Shown here piece after piece: positions 7,065 through 57,565 of a stretch of DNA of 59,054 nucleotides. Every line of letters starts with the position of its first letter. The stretch's first letter is position 1. The notes under the pieces were generated by a model that searched no databases, was not told the origin of the DNA, and saw only the letters and a program-made list of their open reading frames with translations. Source of the stretch: Chloroflexota bacterium (GTDB lineage: Bacteria > Chloroflexota > Dehalococcoidia > Lucifugimonadales > JADFKI01); assembly GCA_009840355.1 (NCBI GenBank), contig VXNZ01000054.1:1-59054 (forward strand), given 5' to 3'. A program made the position numbers and the translations under genes.

Positions 7065-7219
7065 CTGACGCGCGTCAGCAAGGCAATGAGTTTTGGCACT
7101 TCTTTTCGTTTAATTTGTGATCGAATTACACTGGAATTTGGCCAACTGATAGGCAAACTTGCAATCATACGCATGATGAAGTTACAATTGGACGCGCCTA
7201 AACCTTGCAATTATACGCA
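7065..7219. promoter_or_regulatory. palindrome and direct repeats upstream of the replication operon
   Basis: CTGACGCGCGTCAG at 7065-7078 is a perfect 14-bp palindrome. Two copies of CTTGCAATYATACGCA follow at 7158-7173 and 7204-7219, identical at 15 of 16 positions and 46 bp apart. Both lie upstream of the ATPase-primase-helicase-initiator gene series, so they are plausible operators. No convincing promoter hexamers were identified. Confidence 0.5.
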
Positions 7220-7243
7220 ACTCCGCGTAATGGGATTTGCCTC

Positions 7244-8596
7244 ATGACTCCAGCGACAGTCTATCCTAGGTATGCTGAGCATCGTCTTCTAGAGGCGCTA
7301 GAAGACTCTCCGGTCGTCTTGATTAACGGGCCGCGTCAGTGTGGTAAGACCACGCTTGCTCAGACGATCTGTGCGCCTGAGTATCTTGGGAGTCCCTCCA
7401 GAGAGCGAATTGCCGCCAACATTTCTCACTCTGGCGCGTACAGCATTCGAGGAAAGTACGACTACATCAGTCTGGACGACGACAATTTGCGCGTCGGCGC
7501 ACAAGAGGACCCTGTCGGTTTTGTTGACGACCTCCCAGACAACGTCGTGCTTGATGAGGTCCAGCGAGCACCTGAGTTGTTCACTGCTCTGAAAGTCGCA
7601 GTCGACAGAGATCGGACGCCGGGACGCTTTGTGCTTACCGGTTCGTCCAACATCCTTCTCCTGGAAAGATTGGCCGACTCACTTGCGGGACGTCAAGAGG
7701 TGGTTCGCCTGCATCCTCTTTCTCAAGGAGAGATAGAAGCGGGAGTCACGCATCTCGAAGATACCGTACCGCATGCCGACCCTACAACCGATTTTCTCGG
7801 CAGGATTTTTGGAGATGGGTTCAGAATCAGCAGGTCAGCCCGCCTCGGCAGGCAGCTGTACAGTCGAATAGTCGCGGGCGGATTTCCTCCGGCCCTCGCT
7901 CGCACCGCGGCTCACCGTCGGGCAGCGTGGTGCAGAGCATACGCTGAGGCCCACGTGCAGCGCGATGTGCGAGACATGGCGCGTATCAGGAGTTTAGACG
8001 TCATCCCAAGACTGCTGAACGCAGCGGCTTCCCAGACTGCCAAACTCTACAATCTCTCCGAGCTTGCTGCTCCATTCCAGCTGAGCAGGCAAACGATAGG
8101 CGACTATGTGACACTCCTCGAAAGAGTATTCTTACTGGAAAAGTTGCCACCCTGGCACGGAGGGCGCGGCCAACGACTCCTGAAGACTCCAAAACTCCAT
8201 CTGGGGGACACGGGACTCGGCTGTGCACTGCTGGGACTGGACGAAGAAGCCCTAGCAACCAACCGCGAAGTCAGAAGCAGTCTCCTGGAGACCTTCGTCT
8301 TTCAGGAACTTAGGCGACAGGCGAGCTGGAGCATCAATCCTCACTCGTTCTACTACTACCGGGATAAGGATCAACAGGAAGTAGATATCGTAGTCGAGAG
8401 AGGTTCATTGGCCGTAGCCGGTGTTGACGTTAAGGCCGCTGCGACAGTTGTGTCCTCCGATTTTCGTGGATTGCGGAAGCTCAAGAGAATAGCCGGAAGC
8501 AGATTTACCAATGGCGTGGTGCTATACGACGGTGAAACGGTTACGAGGTTCGGCGACAGACTATACGCTGTACCCATACGGCACCTCTGGAAGTAA
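7244..8596 (+). CDS. AAA_14/DUF4143 ATP-binding protein
   Basis: This 450-residue protein belongs to the common ATPase family that pairs an N-terminal AAA_14 domain with a C-terminal DUF4143 nuclease-like domain. Walker A is GPRQCGKT (residues 29-36) and the Walker B-like acid pair is in VVLDEVQRAP (about 101-110). A winged-helix segment (about 270-300) precedes the C-terminal EVDIVVE/VDVKA motif of a degenerate PD-(D/E)XK fold. The biological role of the family is unknown. I chose the ATG at 7244 because the TTG at 7205 lies inside a direct repeat. It begins a same-strand series with primase, helicase and initiator (gaps of 31, 12 and 43 bp), although it may be cargo rather than a replication factor. 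Confidence 0.82.
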   Translation: MTPATVYPRYAEHRLLEALEDSPVVLINGPRQCGKTTLAQTICAPEYLGSPSRERIAANISHSGAYSIRGKYDYISLDDDNLRVGAQEDPVGFVDDLPDNVVLDEVQRAPELFTALKVAVDRDRTPGRFVLTGSSNILLLERLADSLAGRQEVVRLHPLSQGEIEAGVTHLEDTVPHADPTTDFLGRIFGDGFRISRSARLGRQLYSRIVAGGFPPALARTAAHRRAAWCRAYAEAHVQRDVRDMARIRSLDVIPRLLNAAASQTAKLYNLSELAAPFQLSRQTIGDYVTLLERVFLLEKLPPWHGGRGQRLLKTPKLHLGDTGLGCALLGLDEEALATNREVRSSLLETFVFQELRRQASWSINPHSFYYYRDKDQQEVDIVVERGSLAVAGVDVKAAATVVSSDFRGLRKLKRIAGSRFTNGVVLYDGETVTRFGDRLYAVPIRHLWK

Positions 8597-12542: not shown

Positions 12543-12746
12543 GGGCGAATTCGTATTGTATTTGCGAGTCTCTACATGCTACGAGCGACTAACTCTACTA
12601 CCCTACACCTACTCTCTACATGAGGAGGTGGTAGGGACAGGAAGTGAGGCTTCGTCCAACTCGCTCACTTCCTGTTACCAGCCTCTTCAATTGGGCAGCG
12701 ACCCTTAACTAGAAATAAGCGCTATTCGAGACCATGATACTTTCCA
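12543..12746. other. origin-proximal region with an 11-bp inverted repeat
   Basis: An AT-leaning segment (12543-12600) follows the iterons and could be the unwinding region. CAGGAAGTGAG at 12638-12648 and its exact reverse complement at 12664-12674 form a hairpin with a 15-base loop. No T-run follows, so a simple terminator is unlikely. A replication-related structure is possible. No gene was seen. Confidence 0.5.
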
Positions 12747-13393
12747 TCACTTCGCGCCTGACACCGGCACCGGGACGCCGGGATTGAGGATGTGGATGCC
12801 ACCGGAACTACCGCAATAGACATTGCCTTCAGAGTCCACTGTCATGCCGTCCGGGATGCCCTCTCTATCATCAGGTCGCATTTCAGCAAACAGTTGGTCG
12901 GATGCCAGGTCAAGGGTGCCCAGGTCAGCGGATATGCGGAAGACGCCGGAGATGCTCTGCTCCCATTGCTCCCGGGGGCGACGGAATGTCCAAGGATCGG
13001 TGGAGTAGATGCTGCCGTCTGACTTTAACACTACGTCGTTCGGGCGGTTGATCTGGGGACATTCGATCCAGTTGGCGTTGACTGTGGTTGAGCCGTCGTC
13101 TCCATGCGGCTGATGCGACGCCCATCGTGCTCGGCAGCGATAAGTCGTCCCTGCAGGTCTCTGGTCAGCCCGTTGTGGCGGTTCACGGGCTGCGCCTCGA
13201 CGGTAAGAAAACCCAGGTATTCATGTCCGTCCTCAGCCAATCCGCCATCCATCGTGAAGCGCATGCGCCGGTCGTTATGGATGTCACTGAAAAGCAGGTG
13301 CCCGCCGTAATCGTCGTCCGGGCCAGCCTACCACAGCGGACCTTCAGCAGAGCTTTCAGCGCCGCCAAAACTGAAGTTTTGGGAGTCGGTCAT
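12747..13393 (-). pseudogene. SMP-30/gluconolactonase-like protein, decayed
   Basis: The fragments together read as a beta-propeller of the SMP-30/gluconolactonase/LRE family: GGHLLFSDIHNDRRM, then VNRHNGLTRDLQGRLIAAEH, NRPNDVVLKSDGSIYSTDPW and GIPDGMTVDSEGNVYCGSSG. The frame starting at the ATG at 13393 meets an in-frame TAG after EGPLW. A frameshift near 13100 moves reading to the next frame. The protein also ends early, after HILNPGVPV, without the last blade. Intact relatives hydrolyse sugar lactones, but this copy is dead unless the lesions are read errors. Confidence 0.75.
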
Positions 13394-13694
13394 GGGGACA
13401 TGATCAGAGCGATGACGATAGCCTTTCGATAGGCATGTCCGTGCCTCCTGTCCGCTGGTATGCTGTGGGTAAGTCCGTCTGAGTGGGCGTCACATTATCA
13501 GATGGCGCAGCTCGGGACTAAATGGGAGTGAGCGGCATCGATTGAAGCCTTCATACGACGAGAGTTAGACCTAGCCGGTGCTACTACCCCTTCACGGTAT
13601 ACTGCCCATGATGACACTTGGAGCGTCCCTTGTGCGTGAGACAAATTGAACCCAAGAGCAGGGACGACGACATCTCTGTCGGAGAGGATTTACG
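13394..13694. other. no gene recognised
   Basis: About 300 bases lie between the decayed lactonase and the DUF1937 gene. No coding frame, RNA or clear promoter was identified. Confidence 0.45.
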
Positions 13695-14114
13695 ATGACC
13701 ACAGTTCCGCTGTCCGGATTCCTGCCGGCTGACGCCTTGGACGAATTCAGGAGATTCGACGGTCCCCTTATCTACCTTGCTGCACCGTTGGGACATCCGG
13801 AGCCCTCGATAAGGCAAGAGCGATTTGAGAGTGTCAACAACTATTGCGGATATCTGATCCGTCAGCGCGTGCTCGTTTTCTCGCCACTGTCGTTGGGCGC
13901 TTCTCTCGATGAGAATGCCATATCCAACAGCGCCTGGTACGCCCTTGGGCTCCAGATGCTGGCGCGCTGTGACGAGCTACGGATTCTCGCACTGGACGGA
14001 TGGGAGGAAAGTGTCGGAGTATCCCTTGAGACAAGGTACGCCAGACAGCTGAGTATCCTTGTTTCAGTCGCCGACCCGCTCACTTACGAAGTGACGTTGC
14101 TGCACGGTAACTGA
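13695..14114 (+). CDS. DUF1937 family protein (deoxyribosyltransferase-like fold)
   Basis: This 139-residue protein matches DUF1937, a phage- and plasmid-associated family with a nucleoside 2-deoxyribosyltransferase-like fold. Seen features are LIYLAAPLGHPEPSIRQERF at residues about 25-45, VFSPLSLG at about 60, MLARCDELRILALDGWEES near 95-110 and the conserved ETRYAR segment. The start ATG follows GAGAGGA. Its substrate is unknown. It lies alone between relics, with no partner gene. Confidence 0.75.
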   Translation: MTTVPLSGFLPADALDEFRRFDGPLIYLAAPLGHPEPSIRQERFESVNNYCGYLIRQRVLVFSPLSLGASLDENAISNSAWYALGLQMLARCDELRILALDGWEESVGVSLETRYARQLSILVSVADPLTYEVTLLHGN

Positions 14115-18321: not shown

Positions 18322-21300
18322 TCACATCAAGGGATTAGGATACCTTGAGCTAGTCAAAGGGAAGTACTGATCTGCGGTCATCTCCTCGGGATCACGGCTT
18401 ACCTTTTGAGGTGTCTCTCGGGCAGGTCTCATCCGATCCACCACCTCCATCGTCCGCACGCTCACGGTGCAAACTCGCCGTAGCAAGTCAATCACATGCT
18501 CCTTGTAGTTCGCGAACCTGTAAGTGTTGAATTTCGCAGCGATAGTCGGATCCCGCGGCTTCTTCTCCTTATACTGGTCCAGCACCCACTCCAGCGCCGA
18601 CCGGTTCCCCAGCCTGTACTGCCACGCATCCGCCGGAACACCCCGCAGCACCGTCTCGCTGTCGATCTGAATCTCCCCCCGCTCCTTGTCCCGAGCATTT
18701 GCCCGCAGCATCACCTTCGGTGCAGAACCTGTGGAATCCCCTGCCTTATCCACCCTCTCTAGCGCATACGGCTCCACATCCTCAAACCCGATATGCAACT
18801 CCAGCAGCTCCCGCCCCATCTTCACCCACGCCGCCCAGTCGTGATACAGCGGCAGCCGCGGAAACTCCCGCAGCAGGTCAACCGCATACTCGTGCCGGTA
18901 CGCCGGATCGTGCAGCACCGCGTACGTGTACGCGAACACATCCTCCGCCGTGATACTCGGCCCTCCCGCGACCTCCTCGAAATGCTCTCCGAACTCCTTG
19001 CGGTAGTGCGCGTTGATCCGCCGCAGCCCCCACTCCGTGATGTTGCTCACCCGCTCCCCGTCCTCCGTGTAGCGGTAGAGCGGCAGGCACTGTGTGTTCC
19101 CGTTGTTCGTACCTGCAAATTTAAGCTCGGGGATTCTGTTAGCCGCTAGAACTGAAAAATGGTCGGAAGAAGGACCTTTGAAGCAAATAAGTTTGTTTTT
19201 ATGGTCCAGCTTCTGTCCAAACATCTCGTAATGGTTTCTCGTCAGCACATCGTTCATCGTGAAGTTTGCAAAATGATGCTTTATCGTGAACGGTCGATAC
19301 AGAGATTGGATGCGGTCCGCCTCACTGTACATTATCCGCCGTCCTCGGCGAAATTCATTCCGCAAATCACGACTCCACTTGATCGTTGATGGAAAGGAAA
19401 TGTCATTTCTGTCTAATAGATTATTGTAAGTATCGGCAAAGAAGAGCGCCTTATATCGAAGGCTGTGGATGTCGAAATCAAATACCCACTCGTCGCGGCT
19501 AGTCATAACACCATTGGAGAACAACTTGAAAATGGCACTTTCTTCATCGGCTGACTTAGTGAATTTCGTCTGTCTATCTGCGATAGGAATGAGCCTTTCA
19601 AATTCAGGATTGGACTGATTGAGCCAGTTATCAAGCTTGTCAGGGATTATCTCTTGGAATTCAATGTCAGCCAATTCTGCCTTGCTCAAGTAGGCTAGTT
19701 TGTCAAGTGCAATCTCAGCGTCCTCACGCCTGGCGTAGTGTATGCCGCACTCGCCTATATTTGCCTTTTCACGAACGAAGAAACCTATGGCGACGCCCGT
19801 CTGTATGCCGAACACATTATGCGTCGTCCCTGAAATCTTGGGATTGCGGCGCACATCCGAACCGAGGTCAAGAATGTAAATGTCACTGAACTCTTGCCCA
19901 GCTACCTTGCGGAAGCCGTCATCCTGCCGCGTGTCAAGATACGCTCGATTTGTGATGAACGTGATCATGCCATCGTTCGCAAGCCTGTCGCTTGCCCAGC
20001 GTATGAACCTCTTGTACATATCGTATTGATGGGTTCTCTGCGCCGTACTTTCGTTGATATATGTGTCCCTGATGCGACGGTCGATTTCTGGATACTTGCG
20101 GTTCGCGCCTCCGTCGCCCCAAAGCTCTGCGCGGTCGTTATACGGCGGATTCCCCAAAATCACGCTTATCGTCTTCTCGTTCTGCAAGTTCACGCGCATC
20201 CAGTTCTCGGTGGACATCCCGCCCAGCTCGAACGCGCCCTGCCGCTGCACCGCGCCGCCCGTCGCCCCCTGCCAGTCCATGTTGTCCAGCGTGTCCACGA
20301 ACACCAGGTTCGGGAATTCCAGGTAGCGCCCGGTCTTCTCACGGTAGGTGTATTCGATGTTCAGGTTGGCGATGTAGTACGGCAGTATTGCCACCTCGTT
20401 CGCGTGCATCTCGTTCAGGTACTTGCGCTCCAGCCTGTCGGCCGGCAGGTATTCGATGAGGTTCGTGATGAACGTGCCTGTTCCGGTGGCGGGATCGAGA
20501 ATCTGCACGTTCTCGTCGGCGAGGCTGCGCCCGAAGTGCTTACCCAGCAGGTAGTCGGCGCCCCGGATGATGAAGTCCACAACCTCGTTCGGCGTATAGA
20601 CGACGCCCAGCCTGTCGGCGGCGGCGGGATTGTACGCCTTGTAGAAGTCCTCGTATATCGCTTTGAGGAAGCTCTGCTTTTCGGCGTAGTCGGCGATCTG
20701 TAGCGCCGCGACGCTTATAGCGTTGTAGTATCGAAGAAGCCTGTCCATCGCCTCCTTCTTGACACCACCGATAAAGAAAGTCTGCTCCAAATTATCGAGT
20801 TGTCGTGCGATATTGTTTTCACTATGAAACTGCGTCTCACGGAAGATATTCAGGAAAATATCCTTAGTCAGAATGTGCTGCAACAGCATCTCCCGCACAT
20901 CCAGTTCCGACACATCCGGCCCGATGCTCTGGTGGCAAAGGTCGAGGAACTCCGCCGCCGCCCTCCGGTACTCCGCGTTGTGCCGCTCCGCCTCCTCGAT
21001 AGTCGCCCGCAGGCGGTCCAGTACGCTCGGCAGGTCGTCCTTGAACTGTGATTGTGCCCTTCGAAAGTCCTCGATTTCCGGCAGCTCATAGTCCAGGAAC
21101 CGCTGTATCAGCCGGTGCAGCTCCCCCGTGCGCGTCATATCCACGCGCATCGCGGTTTCGCCGTTCTGCACCAGCACCGCCGTTTCCGAGTCCTCGAAGA
21201 TGATGTTGTCGGTCGGATACCCCCGGTTGAACTTCGCCTGAATCTCGGCATCAAGGTCGTCGTGCGTATCCTTCGCCTCCCAGTACCCCCGCGCCATTAG

Positions 21301-21510
21301 CAGAACGTCTCGTACTGTTCCGTCTGGTATCACGCCTCTGACTGTCGGGCGCTCCGCAACCAGCTCGAAATCCTCCCTATGTTCGCGACAGTATGAATTT
21401 AGGCAGTTTTCGAACGCACGGCGAACGCTGAGCTCGTTCCTTGAGCCACCAAAGCGGATCAGTCGTTCTAGGTCCTGCCTGTACCGCTCAATATGTGGAT
21501 AAGTAGGCAT
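18322..21510 (-). CDS. single-chain type ISP-like restriction-modification enzyme (nuclease-adenine methyltransferase)
   Basis: This 1062-residue protein fuses nuclease, methyltransferase and target recognition. The N-terminal Mrr-like nuclease has D63 and E78-A-K80 in VIPDGTV and YWEAKD. A long helical linker leads to an N6-adenine methyltransferase with SAM motif DPATGTGTF (about 338-346) and catalytic NPPYND (about 453). The C-terminal part (about 850-950) with EDVFAYTYAVLHDPAYR and LPLYHDWAAW matches the specificity domain of type ISP enzymes. Classical type ISP enzymes also carry a helicase between nuclease and methyltransferase, which is missing here, so it may act like a type IIG enzyme. 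It should methylate its site and cut unmodified DNA. No separate specificity subunit was seen. Confidence 0.85.
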   Translation of the reverse strand: MPTYPHIERYRQDLERLIRFGGSRNELSVRRAFENCLNSYCREHREDFELVAERPTVRGVIPDGTVRDVLLMARGYWEAKDTHDDLDAEIQAKFNRGYPTDNIIFEDSETAVLVQNGETAMRVDMTRTGELHRLIQRFLDYELPEIEDFRRAQSQFKDDLPSVLDRLRATIEEAERHNAEYRRAAAEFLDLCHQSIGPDVSELDVREMLLQHILTKDIFLNIFRETQFHSENNIARQLDNLEQTFFIGGVKKEAMDRLLRYYNAISVAALQIADYAEKQSFLKAIYEDFYKAYNPAAADRLGVVYTPNEVVDFIIRGADYLLGKHFGRSLADENVQILDPATGTGTFITNLIEYLPADRLERKYLNEMHANEVAILPYYIANLNIEYTYREKTGRYLEFPNLVFVDTLDNMDWQGATGGAVQRQGAFELGGMSTENWMRVNLQNEKTISVILGNPPYNDRAELWGDGGANRKYPEIDRRIRDTYINESTAQRTHQYDMYKRFIRWASDRLANDGMITFITNRAYLDTRQDDGFRKVAGQEFSDIYILDLGSDVRRNPKISGTTHNVFGIQTGVAIGFFVREKANIGECGIHYARREDAEIALDKLAYLSKAELADIEFQEIIPDKLDNWLNQSNPEFERLIPIADRQTKFTKSADEESAIFKLFSNGVMTSRDEWVFDFDIHSLRYKALFFADTYNNLLDRNDISFPSTIKWSRDLRNEFRRGRRIMYSEADRIQSLYRPFTIKHHFANFTMNDVLTRNHYEMFGQKLDHKNKLICFKGPSSDHFSVLAANRIPELKFAGTNNGNTQCLPLYRYTEDGERVSNITEWGLRRINAHYRKEFGEHFEEVAGGPSITAEDVFAYTYAVLHDPAYRHEYAVDLLREFPRLPLYHDWAAWVKMGRELLELHIGFEDVEPYALERVDKAGDSTGSAPKVMLRANARDKERGEIQIDSETVLRGVPADAWQYRLGNRSALEWVLDQYKEKKPRDPTIAAKFNTYRFANYKEHVIDLLRRVCTVSVRTMEVVDRMRPARETPQKVSRDPEEMTADQYFPLTSSRYPNPLM

Positions 21511-21666
21511 TCAAGATCCTCGTTAATTTCCTCGATAAGTTGTGTGAAATGCAGGAAATGCTAATCACTGAGTCCTTCCTCGTCAAGTGCGCCGCGAAAC
21601 ACGCTTGTAGTAGTCAGTCCCCTCCAACTTGACAGTGCCTCCTACCCAACGTTATCGTTGTGTTAT
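21511..21666. other. intergenic region between divergent genes
   Basis: The methylase gene and the nucleotidyltransferase relic are transcribed away from this 156-bp gap. Promoters for both probably lie here, but no consensus hexamers were picked out. Confidence 0.35.
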
Positions 21667-22103
21667 GCTTCCTGATTTCAACCAGGCCAGTCTACTGCCC
21701 CCGGGCATTCATCGGGCCAACTGGGATGAATTTGCCCAAAGATACGGGCGAAATCCTTGGTGAAGAAGTCTTCTGGCCGGACTCAGAATGGCTCTTGAGA
21801 ACTTGAGAGACGCCGGCTGCCAGACAGCTTACATAGACGGGAGTTTCGGCACAGACAAGGAGCACCCGAACGACTACGACGCATGTTGGGAAGAGGCCGG
21901 AGTCGATCCCTATCTGCTGGACCCGGTTCTGCTAACCTTCGACCTGGGAAGGGCGACACAGAAAGCGAAGTATCTGGGGGGCTGTTCCTCGCCTCCGTTG
22001 TTGCAAACGCAGAAGGTCTGTCTTTTCTGGAATTCTTCCAGACGGACGGGGATACCGGAGAACCGAGGGAATTGTCGTCATCGATCTGGAGGAACTGACA
22101 TGA
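21667..22103 (+). pseudogene. DUF6932-type nucleotidyltransferase-like gene, broken
   Basis: Joined across frames, this encodes a family seen in toxin-antitoxin-like pairs: MLPDFNQASLLPPGIHRANW at the start, then AYIDGSFGTDKEHPNDYDAC, a minimal-nucleotidyltransferase GS...D-x-D motif, and FLEFFQTDGDTGEPRG near the end. An in-frame TGA interrupts it after NPW (about 21766-21768). Two compensating frameshifts are needed near 21978 and 22068. Intact relatives are putative nucleotidyltransferase toxins paired with a helix-turn-helix protein, and such a partner follows here with an overlapping stop/start. Confidence 0.65.
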
Positions 22104-22522
22104 TCAAGAACGAGAGACAATACCGTATCACCAGGGTCCAGGTGAGACGCTTCGAGCGATCGCTGGAAGTGCTTCTGCAGAGCAACGAAGAGGAAGAGGA
22201 TATACATCCACTAATCGCCAAGGCGCGTGAGGACGCAATACGCAGCCAGCTTTCAGATCTCAGGTCTGAGCTTCGGGAGTATGAGGCCCTGAAGGCTGGT
22301 GATTTCGAGTTGGACCAGCTTGGAGTCGTGTCCGGCCTGCCGGCGATGCTCATCAAGGCTCGGATCGCGCGGGGAATGAGTCAGAGGGACCTGGCTGAGC
22401 GGATCGGGCTGAAGGAGCAGCAGATACAGCGCTATGAGGCCACCGACTATGCTTCGGTCAGCCTCTCCCGGATTAAGGATATTGTTGGTGAGTTGAGTGA
22501 AGAGAATTCCCTACATGGCTAA
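22100..22522 (+). CDS. XRE-family helix-turn-helix protein
   Basis: This 140-residue protein has a charged coiled-coil-like N-terminal half (FERSLEVLLQSNEEEEDIHP, ISQ/ELREYEAL region) and a C-terminal XRE helix-turn-helix at about 88-135 (ARIARGMSQRDLAERIGLKE, QIQRYEATDYASVSLSRI). It starts at an ATG overlapping the stop of the broken nucleotidyltransferase gene (ATGA), so the two were once translationally coupled. It is a plausible antitoxin or repressor that has outlived its partner. The TIR-like gene begins 32 bp downstream on the same strand. Confidence 0.8.
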   Translation: MIKNERQYRITRVQVRRFERSLEVLLQSNEEEEDIHPLIAKAREDAIRSQLSDLRSELREYEALKAGDFELDQLGVVSGLPAMLIKARIARGMSQRDLAERIGLKEQQIQRYEATDYASVSLSRIKDIVGELSEENSLHG

Positions 22523-22554
22523 GACTGAACGGTAACTGTGGGTGAGGAAGTGAA

Positions 22555-23490
22555 ATGGCTAATAGACGGACTATCAGTCGAGACGATTCTAACCTTCCAA
22601 GCCTGCTTGTATCGAGAGAGGAGGCAAAGCAACGGCTGGGCGACCAAATTACAAGAGGGAGAGCTCTCCTGAAGCGCTTGGATGAAGGTGTGGAAGCTTT
22701 GAAAACTTTGCCACCTGAAAAGGGCTTCATCAGATCGATTACGGAAGGTCATCCTAAACACGACTTAGGGATGTCAATTCGCGAAGAGCACGAAATATGG
22801 ATGAAGTATATTCAGACCTTATTCGCTGCAACCTTCGATGAGGGCCAGTATTACAGCGAATTCCTACATGAACGTGCTAAGCCACACATAGGTTCAGTAA
22901 CAGATTACTATGGCGGGTTTTTTCGACGCTTTTTACGTAGGCAAGTTGCTACTCTTGTTTCTATTAAAGAGCGTGTAAGTCTATTAGATGAGCCGGCTGC
23001 GATTGTTTCAGACAATAATGCCGCTCCAACCTCTGTTGTGTCTGCGAGAAATGTTTTTATTGTTCATGGTAGAGATAGAGGTGTTCGAGAAACGGTTGCT
23101 AGATTTGTGGAACATCTAGGTCTTCACGCAGTTATTCTGGATGAAATACCCAACCTGGGACGTACCGTTGTGGAGAAGTTTGAACAAGCTGCAGCTGAAC
23201 ACAATGTACGCTATGCGATTGTTCTGATGACACCAGATGATGTAGGAGCATTAGCTATTGAAGTGGACGAATCATCACCCCGCGCTCGCCAGAATGTCAT
23301 ATTTGAGCTCGGTTACTTCATCGGTAAGCTAGGTAGGGGAAATGTCTGCCCGCTTGTCAAAGGGGATGTCGAAATTCCTTCGGATTTTTACGGGGTTGTG
23401 TACGTACCATTAGATGATTTCGATGGTTGGAAGAGTAAGTTGAAGAGTGAAATGGAAGCCGTAGGACTTCCCATTCACGAGGCGAGTTGA
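22555..23490 (+). CDS. TIR-like nucleotide-binding effector (PF10137 type)
   Basis: This 311-residue protein has a helical N-terminal domain (about 1-150) and a C-terminal TIR-like domain (about 167-300) of the predicted nucleotide-binding type. Visible landmarks are [42 protein letters not shown] and [16 protein letters not shown], with E251 the probable catalytic acid. Related domains cleave NAD or act as abortive-infection effectors. It shows no sensor or cyclase partner nearby, so it may work alone or with the XRE gene just upstream. AT-rich codon use in the middle contrasts with the neighbours and suggests separate acquisition. Confidence 0.82.
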
Positions 23491-26229: not shown

Positions 26230-29200
26230 TCAAGGTGAACTGCTGTCGACACTGTCAAAGTCTCCCCAGCACTCCAACGTGCCGTCCGATCGGAGGCCGC
26301 AAGTGTAACGATCCCCTGCGCCGATGGCAACGAACTCCCCTTCGAATGGAGGAGACGTCTGCCCGTATTCACCGGAGCCCCAGCAGTGTACTGAGCCACT
26401 TATGTCTATGGCGCAGGTATGCGACGTACCCGTGCCAACAGCTATGAACTCACCCGATTCGGGTCGGCCCGATACTTGCCCGTGTTCGTCTGAGCCCCAA
26501 CATTGGATGGCTCCTTCTTCGTCAATGGCGCAGGAGTGCCTTGCGCCCACGCTGATGACCGTGAAGCCGCCGGCAGTTGGGCTCCCTGACACCTGCGCAG
26601 AGTCGTCCACTCCCTGACAGGAGATTTCGCCATTCTGGTTGAGTGAGCAGGCATGGCTGGGTCCTGCGGACAGCGCGCCTGGAACGGCAACCACCGGCTC
26701 GATCTCAGGTGCGAAGTACCACTGTTCCGGGAATCCGGTGTTTGGTGTTCTAAGTGGCCAATCGTTGGCCGCAATATCAGGCACGTTTCTCAGCTCGTTC
26801 TTCTTGACGATCATGCCCTGCACCATCGGTGAGAGGCCGACTATGCCGATGTTGTACTGGTTCTCCACGATGAATTTGTAGATTTCCCTGCCGAGAGCGT
26901 TGCGCTCCGTCTCCTGCAGGCCGGGACCGCGGCCGTGCATCTCCAGCAGGTCCAGAGACTCCTGTGCGCAGGGGAAGGCATATTCGGCTTCTGGATTGAC
27001 GAGCCACTGGGCGCAGCCCGGACCATGGAAGGAACCGATTCCTGCTGGGGCACGCTTGCCAACCGAGCTGAAGGTAAATCCGGTCGTATCTTCGTTCCAT
27101 ACCATGACAGCCCACTCGTTCGTCTGCCAGCGCGTGAAATGCTGCGTTCGCGTGGTCACGTTCACATCCGTCTTGACACCGACTTCTTCCCACGCGCGGC
27201 CTACCAACTGTGCCGTGTCCGGCCAAACGCGGAATGAGTCCGTTGCTGTGATGCTCATTACGATTCTCTCACCGCTGCTGAGACGCCACCCCTCGCTGTC
27301 TTTGTCAGGGAATACGCTGTCAAGGAGACGATTAGCCTCTTCCATGTCGTACGCGGTGCGAAGATTGGCGATGTCGTCACCCGGATAATGTGCATGGCCA
27401 GGAGACGGCACACTCTGCCTGATTTCACCAAAGCCGAGGAACTGAATCTCCTGGATTGCACTCCTGTCGATGGCAAGCGAGAGCGCCTGGCGGAACTCCT
27501 TCGTTCTGATGGCGTCACCCGTGGGGCCCGGCATGCTCATGTTGAAGAAAAACGCCGCGTCTGAGCCGCCGAACGCAGGCCAGGTCAGCAACTTGTAGCC
27601 GCCCTCAGACTCGGCATCCTTAAGCGGATTGAACTGGTCAATTTGAATATGGCGACCCTGCATGTCGATCTCGCCCTGCGCTGCACGCAGGACGCCACTT
27701 TCGATGCTCTCCACCAATGTCAGCTGAATGCCGTCGACGTATGGAAGCTGGTTGCCGACCTCGTCGACTGCCCAGAAGTACGGGTTGCGCTCGGTCATCA
27801 CCACCTGATCGCCTAACTTATTCGTGAACCTCCACGGCGCTAGACTGGGCTTTTCTGGATTGAGGTTGTACTGCGTCCTGTAGTTATAATACTCGACCCA
27901 GTCACCGAATCCTGCGGCCTGTGCCTCCTGCCCAACGTCGGAATTATAGTCAATATGGAACTGCTGCATATAGTGGGAAGGCGCCCATGGAACGTTCCTA
28001 GATGCGCCATAGCATGCCTCATCAGCCTGTGCCACGATCTCAAGGAACAGGAAGTTAGGCTGCGGGAATACGAACTTCACCGTGGTGTCGTTTACCTTTT
28101 CGATGCTGCCGACCTCGTTCCCTATCCTAAGAAAGACAGGTATATCCTGCGTCAGATCCTCGTTGAGCAGCACATTCTCATAGTTCCACAAGAAGTCGTC
28201 TGCGTTGAAGTTATCACCGTCGGACCACTTCATGCCTTCGCGCAAGTAGAACGTCCACTCCTTGCCGTCCTCGGACATCTTCCAGTCCTTGGCGACGGAT
28301 GGGACCAGCGAGAATCCGTCCTGCGAAAATCTCACAAGCGAAGCCCGCGACAACCGGAAGAAATTACAGCCGTCAGCAGGGCCAAGGTAGAAACGCCGCA
28401 GGATGCCGCCATATTCACCCGTGTCTTCGATTGTCGGAATGGTCAAGGGCTCCGACGGCAACCTCTCGCATACGGACGATAGTTCACCAGACGCCACCTT
28501 CTCCGCAAGGTCAGGCGATTCCGAATACTCGGAACACTCAGCATCTGCCCGGGTGCCGAGTTCAACGCCGAGCGTAAAGGCTGCGGGCTGACCCGCGTCG
28601 TAAGTGGTCGCCTCGATGGTGTATGTCCCGCTGTCCAGGCTCTCCAGTATGCCCGAATCCGTAGATGAATTGAGGGTGAAATCCGAATGGTCGTCATCGT
28701 CGTCCTCATGCACTATGTGACCGTCTATCCCTTCACCCTCCCTGATGTACAGGTAAGTGTCCACTTCGGACTCGAGGGTGACTGCAACGTCTCCGGGTTC
28801 AGCGAGAGTGAAAGAGTAAAAGCGGGCGTAACTGCCGATACGCACGCTGGATTCGCATTCGCTGTCCCAAGTACCGTAAACGGTCGTAGACTCTGTGACA
28901 ACTTCCAAGCAGGTGTCGGAAACTGCAGTTGGCGTTCCGGTCACTGTCTCAGACCATGTTCCCGATCCTGCGCCGTGGACCGCACGCATCTGTACGTCGT
29001 AGGATACGTCAGCTTCGAGTCCGGTGAGCGTGTATCTTCGAGCTCCACCGGTCCATACTTCAGTAGCTACCGTCCAGTTTCCGTCCGACTTGTCGGCCGA
29101 ATCGCTTTCTATGTAACGGATGTCATAGGAGGCAATGTCGGTTCCGCCCGTCTCCTCCGGAGCGGTCCAGACAACTGTCAGAGCCTGTCCACCCGGGCTG

Positions 29201-32200
29201 ATGCTCTCGATAACCGGGGCTCCGGGCGCGTTCGCGTGGTTGATGTTAATCGTGTAGTGCTGCGCCCCGCGTCCGTCTTCAGGGATGACACGCAGGGTTA
29301 TGACGGTCACGACCGAATCAAGGTCGATCTGGTGTCCTGCAACCGAGGCGTCCGCGTCAGGTATTGCGCTGCCGTCCTTGTCGTGAATCTGTACGGTGGC
29401 GCCTGCATCGCCTGTAGGTATGATCGTAACCCGCGACTGGCCGACTACCGCCGTATAGCTGGTGTGTGCAGGGTCGAAAGGAGGGACCAGCGCGCCAGGG
29501 CTTACGGTGAGCCCGCTCAACAGCGCCTTACACGATGGGGTGCCGAGTTCTTCGAGGTCGTTATCCGGCACATCCAGCAGACCTTCCGGGACACAACCAA
29601 TCAATCGGTTGGTCCTCATATGCACTCGCTCGAGGTTTGTGAGGTTCCCTAGCTCCGTAGGTATTGTGCCGCTCAGTTCATTGTGATTGAGAAGCAGATC
29701 CTTAAGGTTTGTGAGATTTCCAAGCTCCGGCGGTATTGAACCGCTCAGGCTGTTGCTGCCGAGCCACAAATCTTCGAGACTGTCCAGCTTGCCCAGTTCT
29801 GGCGGTATCGGGCCTCTCAACTGATTGCTATACAGAAGTAGAGAACTGAGGTCTGTGAGTTTGCCCAAATCGGGCGGCATTGAGCCGCTTAACTGGTTGT
29901 AGGAGAGTCCCAAGAACCCTAGATTGGCAAGGCTGCCGAGTTCCGACGGTATCGGACCACTCAGGCTGTTGCTGCCGAGCCACAGACTCTTCAGATTGTT
30001 TAGGTTGCCCAACTCCTGTGGTATATGACCGCTCAGGCTGTTGCTACTAAGCCAGAGATACTGCAGATTCCCGAGCTTGCCCAGTTCTGGTGGTATCGTG
30101 CCATGCAACTGATTTCTAATCAGAATCAGAAAACTGAGGTGGGTGAGTTCGCCCAGCGTTGAAGGAAGTCTGCCGGAAACTTCCGCTTCTCGAAATTCGA
30201 TCCCATATACCCGGTCGGAGTGTAATTCAATCCCCTCCCACTGGGCGATGGGAAGATTCACGCTCCAGTTGAGTGACTGCTCACCACGCAGGATGTCCCG
30301 TGATGCCAGCAGCGCTTCGCAGTCGTCGACTATGCCGTTTCCGGTGTACCCTGACACCGCTGTGCTGCCGGCACATTCCGCACTGCGAACCGTGATGCTG
30401 ACTGCCAACGAATCCGTGTCGCCGTCACTGTCTGTAACTTTGAGCGTATATATGGTTTCCTCGGCAGCAACCGAAGCGGTCGAGACTTCGATCCGCGGCG
30501 GCGGCCCGGAAACGAAGGCCACGCCATTGCCGGGTTCGGGAGACAGGGAGTAGGTCAGTGGTCCGTTGCCTCCGATCGCCTGGGGAAGCGTGCGATTGTC
30601 CTCTTCTCCAGCAATGAATGCGTAGGCAACGTTTGCGGCCTCGAAAGCCGGCGCAGTGTCCTCCTCGTCATCGATAACGTACAGCGAAAGGGACTGAGGC
30701 GCGATCACCCCCTCGTCGCTTGCGTTGTTCGCAGTGGCGGATAAAATCACCTCCACGCTTCCGGTCCGGTCATCGTTATCCACCGCGGTGACCGTCACCG
30801 CGCCGTGACTCCGCGTCCGTCCTGCAGGTATGGTGAGCGTCCTGTTCTTACTGAGAGTAGCGGCATCGTGCGATGAAGCGGATATCGTCACCTTTGTGTC
30901 CTCACTCGACGGCCTGTGCAGTGTTGCGGTAACAGTACTGGTACCTCCGTTCTCCGACAGCCAGTAACTCGACAGTGCAAGGCCAACCCTCGGTGTGGAG
31001 GAAGCGGAGCGGCGGAAGTTCGCGGTAATTCCGCGTCTCTCGTTGAGAGTTCTAACGGCGTCGGCCGGTCCGTCAACGCCGGTGGACGGATCATCCGCAG
31101 AAACTCCCACAGGATCGCCGTTGTAGGTCAGTCTTGGATTCGAGAAGTAGGCAAGCCTCGGGCAGTATGCTTCTTCGCCGAGAATGTTTACACACTGCCT
31201 ATCGTATGACATGATTGTGCGCCAGCGCGTCGATTCCGGCGCGCCCGGTTCGAAGGCACGCTGGTTCACATAGCCGTAGTGCCAACCTTCAAGAGACGTT
31301 TCTTCTGATTCCTGCAACGACACATACCGGTCGTGGAGGAGCCCCATGTTATGCCCCAGCTCGTGCGCGAAGACCAGTCCGCCCCAGGGCGCCGCTCGTG
31401 TGATCCCAAATGACCCCTCAAAATATGCTATTCCGGCGAATGTATATTCCCATGTCCAGGCAGAGAGCAAGTGAACTAGGTCGGCAGAGTAAGTCTCTCG
31501 CAGGCTGTGAACGTGGTCTATGTGGCTGTCCAAGTCATCCTCGAGCCTCTCGAGGTCAATAAGTATTTCGCCGGATTCGATGTAGTCCACTTCCTCCCGC
31601 AATACCAGTCTTATCCTGTGGAATGCGCCGCTGTTCGCGTATGCCTGGTTGGTCTGGGCGACGTATAGGTCGATCAGCGCTTCGATGCCTGCTCTACCTC
31701 CCATCAGAATCTTGGCGGCAGGTGTGTAGAACACCATTACGTCTATCAATGAACCGTCATCATCGGAGATGGAAACGTCAAGCGCCTGTTGGGATCCCTC
31801 ATCTGAGTCGGGCGGAGCTTCAAGAGGCTCGGCCAGAGGCGGCAGGTCAGATTCGTCAATCTGCCGAATCACATATGAGCCGGTGCTCGTAGTCGTGATC
31901 GTATAGACCGCCTGAGGTGTGCGCACCGTGCCGACTACTACGTCTCCATTCACTACCATTGTCATGGTGCCTAGTTCCACATCGTCGAGATCACCCCAGA
32001 ATGCGTACCCCGATGCGGTCGGTTCCACATGCTCGATTCTGCCCGTGAATACGGCGTCCTCAAACAGGTTGAGCGTTACAGTTCGGGGCGCAAGGCGTCT
32101 TACCTCCCCTGTGCCCAAGGGTCTCGATACTGATGCCAATGATGGGTCGAGTTGCGCGAAGTCGATATTCGCGAATCGGCTGACGTCGGACTCGACGCCG

Positions 32201-32505
32201 GGACTGGGCGGTGGTTCACCCTCGATATCGAAGAACAATCCCTTAACCTGTTCTTCGCCGTCGTCCCCTTTCGATCCATCGGACGCTGGGACAGATACGG
32301 GGGTTGGAGGGGGCGGCTCGACTTCCTCCGGGACGATCGTAGCCGTTGGTGCTATTCCTTGCGAGGAGGCAGGCGACGGCAGCGCGAGCAAACTGACCAT
32401 CGCAAGTAGGACTATGGCCGTAACCAGCAGTGCTCTTACTGAACGACTGCTGGACGTAACGTCTAATGCCCGGGCATGTTCTGAGACCAATACGCTGTTG
32501 CCCAA
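26230..32505 (-). CDS. giant extracellular chimera: metalloprotease, LRR, FN3, SBP family 5 and RCC1 domains
   Basis: This 2091-residue protein starts with a signal or anchor (about residues 24-48, LLVTAIVLLAMVSLLALPSP). A zinc metalloprotease domain follows (about 240-505) with HELGHNMGLLHD near 380, then Calx-beta- and cadherin-like beta domains (515-710). Plant-type leucine-rich repeats cover about 717-985 (LxxLxxLxLxxNxLSGxIPxELG). Next come a cadherin-like beta sandwich (995-1085), an FN3 domain (1090-1195), a PPC-like domain with a DDDDDH run (about 1198-1320), a full ABC-transporter solute-binding domain of family 5 (about 1345-1930, WTFYLREGMKWSDGDNFNAD) and RCC1-type repeats to the end (SCQGVDDSAQVSG, HSCAIDEEGAIQCWG). 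All parts are in one uninterrupted frame. It is presumably secreted or anchored and may bind, cut and deliver peptides. Its function is inferred only. Confidence 0.82.
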   Translation of the reverse strand: MGNSVLVSEHARALDVTSSSRSVRALLVTAIVLLAMVSLLALPSPASSQGIAPTATIVPEEVEPPPPTPVSVPASDGSKGDDGEEQVKGLFFDIEGEPPPSPGVESDVSRFANIDFAQLDPSLASVSRPLGTGEVRRLAPRTVTLNLFEDAVFTGRIEHVEPTASGYAFWGDLDDVELGTMTMVVNGDVVVGTVRTPQAVYTITTTSTGSYVIRQIDESDLPPLAEPLEAPPDSDEGSQQALDVSISDDDGSLIDVMVFYTPAAKILMGGRAGIEALIDLYVAQTNQAYANSGAFHRIRLVLREEVDYIESGEILIDLERLEDDLDSHIDHVHSLRETYSADLVHLLSAWTWEYTFAGIAYFEGSFGITRAAPWGGLVFAHELGHNMGLLHDRYVSLQESEETSLEGWHYGYVNQRAFEPGAPESTRWRTIMSYDRQCVNILGEEAYCPRLAYFSNPRLTYNGDPVGVSADDPSTGVDGPADAVRTLNERRGITANFRRSASSTPRVGLALSSYWLSENGGTSTVTATLHRPSSEDTKVTISASSHDAATLSKNRTLTIPAGRTRSHGAVTVTAVDNDDRTGSVEVILSATANNASDEGVIAPQSLSLYVIDDEEDTAPAFEAANVAYAFIAGEEDNRTLPQAIGGNGPLTYSLSPEPGNGVAFVSGPPPRIEVSTASVAAEETIYTLKVTDSDGDTDSLAVSITVRSAECAGSTAVSGYTGNGIVDDCEALLASRDILRGEQSLNWSVNLPIAQWEGIELHSDRVYGIEFREAEVSGRLPSTLGELTHLSFLILIRNQLHGTIPPELGKLGNLQYLWLSSNSLSGHIPQELGNLNNLKSLWLGSNSLSGPIPSELGSLANLGFLGLSYNQLSGSMPPDLGKLTDLSSLLLYSNQLRGPIPPELGKLDSLEDLWLGSNSLSGSIPPELGNLTNLKDLLLNHNELSGTIPTELGNLTNLERVHMRTNRLIGCVPEGLLDVPDNDLEELGTPSCKALLSGLTVSPGALVPPFDPAHTSYTAVVGQSRVTIIPTGDAGATVQIHDKDGSAIPDADASVAGHQIDLDSVVTVITLRVIPEDGRGAQHYTININHANAPGAPVIESISPGGQALTVVWTAPEETGGTDIASYDIRYIESDSADKSDGNWTVATEVWTGGARRYTLTGLEADVSYDVQMRAVHGAGSGTWSETVTGTPTAVSDTCLEVVTESTTVYGTWDSECESSVRIGSYARFYSFTLAEPGDVAVTLESEVDTYLYIREGEGIDGHIVHEDDDDDHSDFTLNSSTDSGILESLDSGTYTIEATTYDAGQPAAFTLGVELGTRADAECSEYSESPDLAEKVASGELSSVCERLPSEPLTIPTIEDTGEYGGILRRFYLGPADGCNFFRLSRASLVRFSQDGFSLVPSVAKDWKMSEDGKEWTFYLREGMKWSDGDNFNADDFLWNYENVLLNEDLTQDIPVFLRIGNEVGSIEKVNDTTVKFVFPQPNFLFLEIVAQADEACYGASRNVPWAPSHYMQQFHIDYNSDVGQEAQAAGFGDWVEYYNYRTQYNLNPEKPSLAPWRFTNKLGDQVVMTERNPYFWAVDEVGNQLPYVDGIQLTLVESIESGVLRAAQGEIDMQGRHIQIDQFNPLKDAESEGGYKLLTWPAFGGSDAAFFFNMSMPGPTGDAIRTKEFRQALSLAIDRSAIQEIQFLGFGEIRQSVPSPGHAHYPGDDIANLRTAYDMEEANRLLDSVFPDKDSEGWRLSSGERIVMSITATDSFRVWPDTAQLVGRAWEEVGVKTDVNVTTRTQHFTRWQTNEWAVMVWNEDTTGFTFSSVGKRAPAGIGSFHGPGCAQWLVNPEAEYAFPCAQESLDLLEMHGRGPGLQETERNALGREIYKFIVENQYNIGIVGLSPMVQGMIVKKNELRNVPDIAANDWPLRTPNTGFPEQWYFAPEIEPVVAVPGALSAGPSHACSLNQNGEISCQGVDDSAQVSGSPTAGGFTVISVGARHSCAIDEEGAIQCWGSDEHGQVSGRPESGEFIAVGTGTSHTCAIDISGSVHCWGSGEYGQTSPPFEGEFVAIGAGDRYTCGLRSDGTLECWGDFDSVDSSSP

Positions 32506-46274: not shown

Positions 46275-47076
46275 TTACCGCTCTATTTGTGTCTCTTCAG
46301 ATGTTGATGTCAGCAGCCTGCTCGATGTCAGCAGACCGGACTGCCGCTTGTCCTTCAGCCTGTAGTTCTCCCCGCGGATGTTGATGACGTGACTGTGGTG
46401 CAGTAGCCTGTCGAGGATCGCGGTAGCTATCACCGCGTCACCCAGCAGCTCACCCCAGTCGGCGAAGCCCTTGTTCGACGTCAGTATGATGCTGCCACGC
46501 TCGTACCTCGCCGACACCAGGCTGAAGAACGCCGTTGCAGACTCCTTGTCGTATGGCCAGATGCCGAACTCGTCCACTATCAGCACCTTGGGAACAAGGT
46601 ACACCCGCATACGCCGGTCCAGCCTGCCTTCTGCTCTCGCCTTCCTCAGGTCCTCCATCAGGTCGTAGGCCCGCACGAAGTAGGCTCCATACCCGTTCTC
46701 TATCGACTTCAGAGCGAGCGCCACCGCAAGGTGCGTCTTGCCCACTCCGGGAGGACCCAGCAGCAGCAGGTTACTGGCTTCCGCCGCGAAGGCGAGTGTG
46801 GCGAGTTCCTTCACCTGTCTTTCGTCTATCGAGGGCTGGAAGTCGAAGTCGAACTCCTCCAGTGTGCGATGGAAGGGCAACTTCGCCATGCGCGTTCTGG
46901 TGGTCATGTAGCGCTCCCTGCGAGCGGACACCTCCACTCCCAGCAGGTCGGAGAGCATCTCGGGGGTACGGTAGCTGCTTCCTGGCAGCGTCGTCCAGCC
47001 TGCTGTCCAGCACCTCCATCACCTGTGTCATACCCAGCGTCTCCAGGTGGCTGCGTGCCTGTTCAAGAGCGAGCAT
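46275..47076 (-). pseudogene. istB: IS21 IstB helper ATPase, frameshifted
   Basis: The N-terminal part starts at an ATG at 47076 (LEQARSHLETLGMTQVMEVL), shifts near 46960, and continues to 46275. The second part holds Walker A GPPGVGKTHLA, Walker B VLIVDEFGIWPY and the typical ARYERGSIILTSNKGFADW. IstB assists the IstA transposase. The shift, close to a run of C, breaks the link between the DNA-contacting N terminus and the ATPase core. It pairs with the degraded IstA gene upstream. Confidence 0.82.
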
Positions 47077-48000
47077 CGCACACCTCCACCGGCCAGCAGC
47101 TCGTATATGTCCAGCGAACGACGCTCAACCTGCTGGGCTGACACCTGCACCGCCAAAGCTTCACGCTTGGGCCTCGTCTCACCGTTCACCGACCCGTCCC
47201 ACTGGCCGGGCAGTGTCAGCCTCTGTCCGCGCCTGTGCGCCCGAGGATGCACCGCCAGGCTCTCGTTACCACACCATATCTCCACCATCCCGGCGTTAAC
47301 GCCGACTTGCGCCATGTTGCTTGACCACGACCACGGTACTCCGTACCGCGATCCGTCCCAGTTCACGTATCCGTCACGTCCTACCTTGCGGTCCTCGCGA
47401 AGGTACACGCCCAGGGTGGAACGCTCAGGCAGCGCACCGAGGCTGCTGCGCTCGATGCCAAGCATCGCCTTCGGAACCTTCTCGGTCGTGCCGTGCACTC
47501 GCTCGTTGGCGACTTCGACACACCATGCCAGTGCCTGCCTGTTCAGGTCGGCGTCGTCACTGAACCGCACAGACGGCCAGAAGTTCCCCTTCACGTACTT
47601 CACGCCGTTCTCAACCTTCCCCTTCGTCTGCGCCCTGTATGGCTTGCACAGCCTCAGCTCGAAGCCAACCCTGCGTGCGAAGTCCAGCATCCGAGAGTTC
47701 CACTCGTGATCGCCGTCCTCGTCATCGCGTTCGATAACCACCACCTTGGCGTTGTCGTACAGGCAGCGCCTCAGCACTCCGCCGAAGTAGTCGAAGGCGT
47801 TCAGGTGACACCTGATGAACGTCGGCACGTCCGCACGGACGAACGAACTCCACGTAGATGGCGGGAGAGAAGCCCAGAACCATCACGAACGCCACATACG
47901 ATGCCTGCGCCCGTCCTCTCCCTTGTAGCTCACCACGCCGCAGTCCACCTGCGCTTGCTCTCCCGTGCCAGTCTCAAACCGCATCGTCGCCTTCGGCTGG
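47028..48000 (-). pseudogene. istA: IS21 IstA transposase, N-terminally truncated and frameshifted
   Basis: The long frame from 47828 carries the catalytic second half of IstA (LYDNAKVVVIERD with Asp, YRAQTKGKVENGVKYVK with Glu, and the C-terminal GYVNWDGSRYGVPW). Upstream, the sequence with FETGTGEQAQVDCGVV and the first catalytic Asp lies in another frame. The helix-turn-helix N terminus is missing altogether. The next IS21 element starts within about 50 bp, so the two elements meet head to head. Confidence 0.8.
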
Positions 48001-48130
48001 CTCGGCTATGAACGGCGGCGGCATAATGTACCACGAAGGAGGATAGACAAGCCGATTGCGGCGGTCTAAAACCATACCGTCTGTCACCTTCCTGTAGAGT
48101 CTGCCGAGACTCGAAGGAAGGTGATCATGG

Positions 48131-49618
48131 ATGTACATCGTGGACATGTATTTGCGTGTGCGCAGGGCGTGCCTGGTGGAGGGGATGAGCATCAGGGAAG
48201 CGTCCCGGGTGTTCGGGTTGCACCGGGACACCGTGCGCAAGATGCTGTCGCACTCGGTGCCTCCGGGCTACCGCAGGAAGCGCCCACCGCGACGACCGAA
48301 GTGGAGCCCTACACGGGCGTCATAGATCGCATACTAGAAGACGACCTGAGTGCGCCGAGGAAGCAGCGCCACACGGCCAAGCGCATCTTCGACCGGCTGA
48401 AGGCCGAGCACGGGTTCGACGGCGGCTACACCATAGTCAAGGACTACGTCCGTGATCACCGGCGCGTGGCGCGCGAGATGTTCGTGCCGCTGGAACACCC
48501 TCCCGGTCACGCACAGTGCGACTTCGGTCAGGCATGGGCGACCATAGGTGGCGAGAGGCGCAGGATCCACTACTTCGTGATGTCGTTTCCGTACAGCGAC
48601 GGCGTGTTCGTGAAGGCATATCCCGCCGAGACGACCGAGGCGTTCTGCGACGGGCACGTGTCGGCGTTCGCCTTTCTGGGCGGCGTTCCGCAGGGCATAC
48701 TGTACGACAACACGAAGCTTGCCGTGGCGAAGATACTGGGAGGAGGGCGACGCAAGCGCACGAGAGCGTTCACGGAGCTTCAGTCGCACTATCTGTTCGC
48801 AGACAGGTTCGGTAGAGTCGGCAAGGGCAACGACAAGGGCATTGTCGAGGGCATGGTGGGATACGGCAGGAGGAACTTCCTTGTTCCGGTCCCTAGGGTG
48901 AAGGACTTCGATGAGCTCAACGCGCACCTGGAGCGTGAGTGCCTGGAGCGTATGGACGCAAGGCTCAGGGGACACACCGAGACGATAGGTGAGCGTATGG
49001 AGCGTGACCTCGGAGCGCTGCTTGCGCTGCCCGCGGCTCCCTACGACGCGAGCGACAAGCATGCCACCCGTGTGAGCTCGCAGTCGCTGGTGCGCTACCG
49101 CAGCAACGACTACTCTGTTCCCGTTGAGGGACGTGCTGGTAAGAGGCTACGTCGATGAGGTGGTCATCAGCTGCGGCACCGAGGTGATAGCGCGTCACCC
49201 CAGGTCGTACGAACACGGTGACTTCGTCTTCGATCCGATGCACTACCTTCCGCTGCTGGAGCAGAAGACCGGAGCTCTGGATCAGGCTGCCCCACTCGCC
49301 GGATGGGAGTTGCCCGAGGAGTACGGCAGGCTGCGGCGTCTGCAGGAGGCCCGGATGGGTAAGCCCGGCAAGCGTGAGTTCGTGCGAGTGCTCAGGTTGC
49401 TTGAAGACTTCCCCGATGACGAGGTTCACGCCGCAGTGCGCGATGCGATCAGTCGGGGAGCGACCGGCTACGACGCGGTCAAGCACCTGCTACTGTGCAG
49501 GATCGAGGGACGGCCGCCAAGGCTCGACCTCACACTGCATCCGCACCTGCCGAGTGTGAGCGTCAGCACGACGTCCGCGGGAGACTATATGAAGCTGCTT
49601 GGAGAGAAGGCATCGTGA
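48131..49618 (+). pseudogene. istA: IS21 IstA transposase with two frameshifts
   Basis: The N-terminal frame (YLRVRRACLVEGMSIREASR, HRDTVRKML) carries the IS21 helix-turn-helix. A shift near 48320 leads to the catalytic core (HAQCDFGQAWATIGGERRRI with Asp, LYDNTKLAVAKIL with Asp, GKGNDKGIVEGMVGYGRRNF with Glu). A second shift near 49135 leads to the C-terminal RDVLVRGYVDEVVI part ending at 49618. Only the two shifts separate it from a normal length of about 495 residues. Confidence 0.82.
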
Positions 49619-53862: not shown

Positions 53863-53901
53863 GTAGTTAACTCCCTATAAGGTCGATGTACCAGTTGGTC
53901 T

Positions 53902-54975: not shown

Positions 54976-55057
54976 TAGTCCATTCCTGTGGAGTTCAAGT
55001 ACGAAATGATTATAAATTAAGTGGACTAATATGTCAATATCACTTATAGTTAGTCCA
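54975..55057 (-). promoter_or_regulatory. perfect-consensus sigma-70 promoter with three TTAGTCCA boxes
   Basis: On the minus strand TTGACA (55037-55032) and TATAAT (55014-55009) are separated by exactly 17 bp, 34 bp upstream of the ietA start codon. TTAGTCCA or its inverse occurs three times: 54975-54982 by the start codon, 55022-55029 inside the promoter spacer and 55050-55057 just upstream of -35. Such placement suggests a repressor controlling an intrinsically very strong promoter. Confidence 0.82.
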
Positions 55058-55145
55058 TAGGCATTTCTTATCAGATTCAGAGTCACGTAGAATGGCTCAC
55101 TAAATGCAGACTCTCTTGTCGCAATCAAGGCGACCACACTCAAGC

Positions 55146-57334: not shown

Positions 57335-57565
57335 ATGAACATCACGCTGAACATTGACGAGGAGACCGTCAAGAAGGTCCGCAAAATAGCCATCGACAAG
57401 GACACGACCCTGACGGAGATGGTCAGGGACTACCTTACCTGGGTGGCAAAGGGCGATGCGCTGGAACGTCAGCAGAACATTGCCGCGCTCGATGAGTCTT
57501 TCGAGAAACTGAGCCGCGACATGGGACCACGAAACTGGAGTCGTGAGGACCTTTATGCCCGATAG
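57335..57565 (+). CDS. vapB: ribbon-helix-helix-type antitoxin (VapB-like)
   Basis: This 76-residue protein starts MNITLNIDEETVKKVRKIAI and continues DTTLTEMVRDYLTWVAKG, a ribbon-helix-helix DNA-binding unit, followed by a toxin-binding tail (LDESFEKLSRDMGPRNWSRE). GGGGGAG lies upstream. The gene overlaps the toxin gene, consistent with coupled expression. It differs clearly from the antitoxin at 24718-25020, so the two modules were acquired independently or diverged long ago. Confidence 0.83.
   Translation: MNITLNIDEETVKKVRKIAIDKDTTLTEMVRDYLTWVAKGDALERQQNIAALDESFEKLSRDMGPRNWSREDLYAR

Follow-up and report, generated by a model that had tools for sequence, protein, structure and literature searches.

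Few ligand binders in bacteria are as numerous as the binding proteins of transporters, and solute-binding protein (SBP, or Venus-flytrap) domains also occur in receptors such as the BvgS-type kinases. Among proteases, the ADAMs combine their catalytic domain with disintegrin and EGF-type modules. Among solved relatives whose ligand is known, SPH1118, a pectin/galacturonate binder (PMC9314435), is the closest to the family-5 SBP domain described here. Sponge symbionts, Chloroflexota included, are reported to carry LRR, cadherin and FN3 proteins as well as restriction systems (PMC6306507, PMC8163846). Here we analyse a 59,054-nucleotide stretch of DNA from a Chloroflexota bacterium of the class Dehalococcoidia (contig VXNZ01000054.1; hereafter the window), in which a single gene brings a metzincin protease, a series of adhesion-type modules and a complete SBP domain together in one chain.

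Domain organization of the 2091-residue protein

As originally predicted, positions 26230-32505 hold one open frame of 2091 residues; it is uninterrupted, without internal stops, and lies on the minus strand, which had not been given (Table 1). Its first codon is TTG, the start being ambiguous between residues 1 and 6, both TTG. The zinc metalloprotease, plant-type LRRs, adhesive beta domains and RCC1 repeats that had been read from the letters all scored above the Pfam cut-offs (Reprolysin_3/4/5, LRR_1/LRR_4/LRR_14, Cadherin-like, fn3, SBP_bac_5 and RCC1_2, the last with an E value of 1.9e-22). PPC alone stayed below, at 18.9 bits for residues 1228-1299 against a cut-off of 25.9; homologous regions of sister proteins within the genus exceed it. 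The RCC1 part comprises about four blades, versus seven in a full propeller, and model confidence is low there. Since the signal region, with its one hydrophobic core, contains no cysteine, there is no lipobox, and a sequence scan of the protein found neither a second membrane-like segment nor an LPxTG motif. LRR, FN3 and cadherin-type modules thus coexist with a secretion signal. The domain type at residues 611-708 recurs in giant open reading frames of the order; repeated cadherin-type domains were seen in open frames of 7000-9000 residues in G012, G017, G049, G193 and G194. A search of 250 order-level genomes returned no full-length ortholog, and the openly accessible literature yielded no published protein with this domain order, in agreement with the initial impression that none had been described.

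Table 1. Features of the 2091-residue protein and their positions in the window
Feature	Residues	Position	Strand	Remarks
Single open reading frame, 2091 aa		26230..32505	-	
Signal peptide region	1-49	32359..32505	-	hydrophobic core around residue 25; lacks Cys and lipobox
Probable propeptide	50-243	31777..32358	-	kept in L198 (50% identity); weak ADAM17 prodomain and protease match
Adamalysin/reprolysin-like metzincin protease	244-500	31006..31776	-	Pfam, relatives, model comparison
Zinc motif HELGHNMGLLHD	381-392	31330..31365	-	Met-turn RTIMSY follows
Ig/Calx-beta-like beta-sandwich	501-610	30676..31005	-	weak Pfam; 65% identical stretch in L198
Cadherin-type domain	611-708	30382..30675	-	resembles protocadherin EC domain (VIA-align Z 11.4)
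Plant-type LRR	709-990	29536..30381	-	about eight 24-residue repeats and N-terminal cap
Cadherin-like beta sandwich (PF12733)	991-1092	29230..29535	-	Pfam
FN3	1093-1195	28921..29229	-	Pfam
PPC-type domain	1196-1318	28552..28920	-	common to many secreted proteins of the same genome
Complete family-5 (cluster C) solute-binding domain	1324-1932	26710..28536	-	
Four-blade RCC1/BLIP-II-like cassette	1937-2091	26233..26697	-	Pfam; nearest relative L047, 58%

A frameshift or mis-joining near residue 1330 had been named as the finding that would undo the prediction. The junction there is the PPC-to-SBP border at 1318/1324, which has neither a frameshift nor a stop, with even GC. Along the frame GC is 0.53-0.62 and GC3 0.58-0.76. 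Both SBP junctions are short inter-domain linkers that match the start and end of the binding domain of the free copies. Mis-assembly driven by repeats was considered and is unlikely given this even composition and the short exact repeats, the longest match between the frame and ten paralog loci of its own genome being 28 nt.

The protease domain has the zinc site (HExxHxxGxxH/D) and the Met-turn that characterize the adamalysin-like metzincins. PF13583, PF13688 and PF13582 exceed their cut-offs over it, its relatives are 37-59% identical, and the zinc-motif residues and RTIMSY are intact and conserved in 3-4 aligned relatives. Structure prediction, one of the checks proposed at the outset, gave an intact SBP fold (pLDDT about 95 in an AlphaFold model of the PPC-SBP-RCC1 part), whereas the protease model reached a mean pLDDT of only 46.9; at that confidence it matches CpaA, ADAMs and snake venom metalloproteinases (VIA-align Z 12-15.6), and its last part resembles a protocadherin domain (Z 11.4). 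In another genome of the order (G248), L198 shares this protease half, with identities of 50-65% depending on the domain, up to a contig end that follows directly on the LRRs; it has no known SBP and was not taken as an ortholog of the whole protein.

The embedded solute-binding domain

The match to SBP_bac_5 covers profile positions 2-345 of 368 (E 2.5e-54; 185.3 bits against a cut-off of 32.4), and the 609 residues of the domain align end to end with solved SBPs of 600 residues. The fold is the two-lobe fold of cluster C, with a TM score of 0.90 (target-normalised) to open SPH1118 (7veq); 5ipw was also matched. The family-5 solute-binding domain of the original prediction is therefore complete; "peptide-binding" is the one domain label of that prediction not supported as such. 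SPH1118 residues Arg57, Arg294, Arg466, Arg496 and Trp594 are kept in the fused SBP and Arg438 is not; two of those kept, Arg57 and Trp594, are key residues of the pectin/galacturonate binder and are hardly conserved in OppA. Judged from these residues, a sugar acid would be as plausible a ligand as a peptide. Nearly all of the positions that are near-invariant in a set of 28 other SBPs are retained (64 of 65), and pairwise dN/dS against relatives is 0.09-0.15, values for which dS is near saturation and which include the time before the fusion.

Two close paralogs of the fused SBP, 74-75% identical to it, are encoded in the same genome. L036 (contig 23), a lipoprotein of 725 aa, has a charged stalk and belongs to a full operon that also encodes two permeases and two oligo_HPY ATPases; L035 (contig 21; 1011 aa) has an ordinary signal peptide, the SBP, a PPC-like domain and an extra C-terminal domain, and is adjoined by an FtsX-like permease gene, not by opp genes. 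At 17 pocket positions, taken as the ligand-contact or nearby sites of SPH1118 (PMC9314435), the fused SBP equals L036 in 15, which is not significantly above the 74% background (binomial, about 0.14 by hand estimate). The free paralogs of the genus have a lipobox and a stalk, and those of the same genome lie in opp-like and opu-like operons, which bears out the earlier remark that SBPs are normally free or lipid-anchored and that a fusion is unusual. The fused SBP has lost both lipobox and stalk. Partners of ABC importers are lipoproteins or free SBPs encoded with a permease and an ATPase; L036 is such a protein and the fused SBP is not, and the window ORFs that were scanned yielded neither a permease nor a transporter ATPase.

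In the tree, the window SBP falls inside the genus clade of free copies (support 100/97) and was thus captured from the transporter family of the lineage itself. Its branch is long (0.27 versus 0.016-0.16 in the genus relatives), which could reflect relaxed constraint, and its grouping with L035, which bears on a joint origin, has weak support (73/63). Of 132 SBP_bac_5 matches, drawn from five genomes of the genus, only those in two non-lipoproteins, the window protein and L035, lie in frames longer than 824 residues. A class-level search with the SBP, at E values up to 1e-80, returned no further fusion, and no giant frame with SBP_bac_8 or Peripla_BP_6 was found in the genus. SBP frames of 964-1011 aa elsewhere in the order were rejected as fusions: their N-termini are lipobox-like, they contain a coiled stalk of about 300 residues, and little follows the SBP before the frame stops. 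In L201-L204, which are SBP proteins of the order and likewise begin with a lipobox-like sequence, the stalks of about 300 residues ahead of the binding domain are alanine-rich coiled segments.

A second SBP family in giant proteins of the genus

Another species of the genus (G001) encodes two giant signal-peptide proteins with an embedded SBP of the OpuAC (glycine-betaine) type: L230 (1712 aa), with the order subtilase-LRR-OpuAC-PPC-LRR, and L047 (1755 aa), with the order GLUG-LRR-PPC-OpuAC-PPC-RCC1-CARDB. Their OpuAC domains are 77% alike, and that of L047 is 64% identical to a free copy; no other OpuAC frame longer than 759 aa was found in 118 genomes of the order. In both L047 and the window protein the RCC1 cassette stands after an SBP, and the two cassettes are 58% identical, the best match of the window's cassette among 247 genomes (the next is 45%). 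G001 also encodes L051, a subtilase-PPC-RCC1 protein without an SBP. The free OpuAC of the window genome (L239) is a lipoprotein adjoined by permease and ATPase genes; the fused SBP copies carry ordinary signal peptides with no lipobox, and no permease of their own kind was found beside them. In a free SBP of G001 (L040, 8002-10311), the stretch VVWNEDTAGFTFSSIGKRA occurs a second time, nearly identical and in frame, which may be an artefact of assembly.

Within one genus, secreted chains of the same kind contain SBPs of two families and proteases of two classes, unrelated in each case, which we read as recurrent reuse. Tentatively, and going further than this, we suggest that the genus repeatedly turns unrelated ABC-transporter SBPs into ligand-sensing modules of giant secreted proteases or adhesins, which would be targeted or switched by a nutrient or osmolyte.

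Genomic neighbourhood

The window is mobile and defence-rich, with a type IIG restriction enzyme, a TIR effector, an IetA-like AAA protein and subtilase, PIN toxins, integrases and pieces of Mu-type transposases. At 51598-55143 (minus strand), a 754-aa subtilase lies beside an AAA ATPase with a PADLOC match to IetA (E 3.6e-83), and the two are likely an IetAS defence pair. A defence cluster at 18322-23490 consists of the type IIG restriction-methyltransferase, then a DUF6932/HTH gene and then a TIR-domain effector (PADLOC PDC-S35), and an AAA_14/DUF4143 ATPase at 7205-8596 (plus strand) matches the PADLOC candidate PDC-S01 (E 5.7e-149). C-terminal pieces of Mu-type transposases, apparently IS21-like remnants, occur on both strands at 47028-49158, and at 57543-58633 (plus strand) a PIN toxin gene and a short phage integrase overlap. 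L047 in G001 also lies near a resolvase gene and near PIN and integrase genes resembling those at 57543-58633 of the window. The L047 locus also has, at 12628-13899, a staphylococcal-nuclease domain fused to ankyrin repeats, near the OpuAC-containing giant protein.

Discussion

We propose, with moderate confidence, that the window protein is a secreted surface-binding protease-adhesin in which a transporter SBP has been reused as a ligand-recognition module. The ordinary signal peptide would export the 2091-residue chain, whose location would be extracellular; the LRR, cadherin-like, FN3, PPC and RCC1 modules would tether it to a surface, which may be that of a host, a matrix or a neighbouring cell; the embedded SBP would close on a small ligand, which is probably that taken up through the free paralog; closure would position the chain or signal occupancy, possibly with some coupling between binding and cleavage; and the metzincin would cleave nearby proteins. 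Of the roles put forward originally, interaction with the environment is the best fit.

The other role put forward, the cutting and handing over of peptides, fares less well. Here the embedded SBP would bind the fragments released by the protease or by partner enzymes and deliver them to the Opp permease of contig 23, and it is true that the genome retains this permease and that the pocket residues are nearly equal to those of the free copy in the full opp operon. Nevertheless, we consider this unlikely: the fused SBP has no anchor, no permease was found near it among the ORFs scanned, so bulky a chain would need to dock at the membrane, and no transporter genes were found to adjoin the two OpuAC chimeras. 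Besides, the pectin/galacturonate-binder residues that are kept suggest a ligand that may not be a peptide but something sugar-like, in which case the protease would not produce it.

It also seems doubtful that the fusion was accidental and the SBP a mere passenger, a folded spacer with no role in binding. The free shuffling of modules in many orders within the genus, the long branch of the fused SBP and the failure to find a full-length ortholog speak for a passenger, but the invariant and pocket residues are almost all retained, pairwise dN/dS is low, and a second SBP family shows the same design.

Finally, that an assembly chimera or a frameshift fused two genes near residue 1330 is very improbable, for although the assembly is a draft (57 contigs, estimated contamination 4.27%) and the exact junction has been seen in one genome only, a single frame of even composition runs through two independent junctions with linkers at the domain borders and no long exact repeat in common with the paralog loci compared, fusions of the same type occur on other contigs and in another assembly, the SBP-adjacent RCC1 cassette is common to the window protein and L047, and the finding of two SBP families and two protease classes in chains of the same kind within one genus argues strongly against an artefact. 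Most likely, the chimera is real and part of a recurrent pattern.

If the reuse of SBPs in secreted protease-adhesins is true, it would open a route to small-molecule-guided extracellular proteins, and these would form a new class in which a small nutrient or osmolyte does the targeting or switching. As a free paralog with the same pocket is present in the same genome, the ligand of the fused copy and its effect on cleavage or adhesion are directly testable. The window protein also illustrates, in one specific case, how modules are shuffled on mobile islands rich in defence genes, in Chloroflexota that may be symbiotic.

The window protein shows both similarities to and differences from the known systems: (i) It shares the fold and the complete domain of the family-5/cluster C SBPs (PF00496; SPH1118, OppA-like 5ipw), at about 28-32% identity. 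However, these are separate secreted or lipid-anchored partners of transporters, whereas the window SBP is internal to a protease-adhesin, with no permease gene found beside it. (ii) With the adamalysin-type metzincins (M12/reprolysin-like; CpaA, Mep72, ADAMs) the window protease has in common the HExxHxxGxxHD motif and the Met-turn, and its low-confidence model gives fold matches; the ADAMs, however, are not known to carry its LRR, SBP and RCC1 partners. (iii) The module types are those of the eukaryotic-like proteins of sponge symbionts, among which no SBP-containing member was found in the literature searched. Restriction-modification and mobile elements are present in the window, as they are reported to be in sponge symbionts. 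(iv) While the SBP of the BvgS-type kinases is fused to membrane signalling domains, and the window protein has neither a membrane nor a signalling domain, in both cases a binding domain of the transporter type has been reused outside transport.
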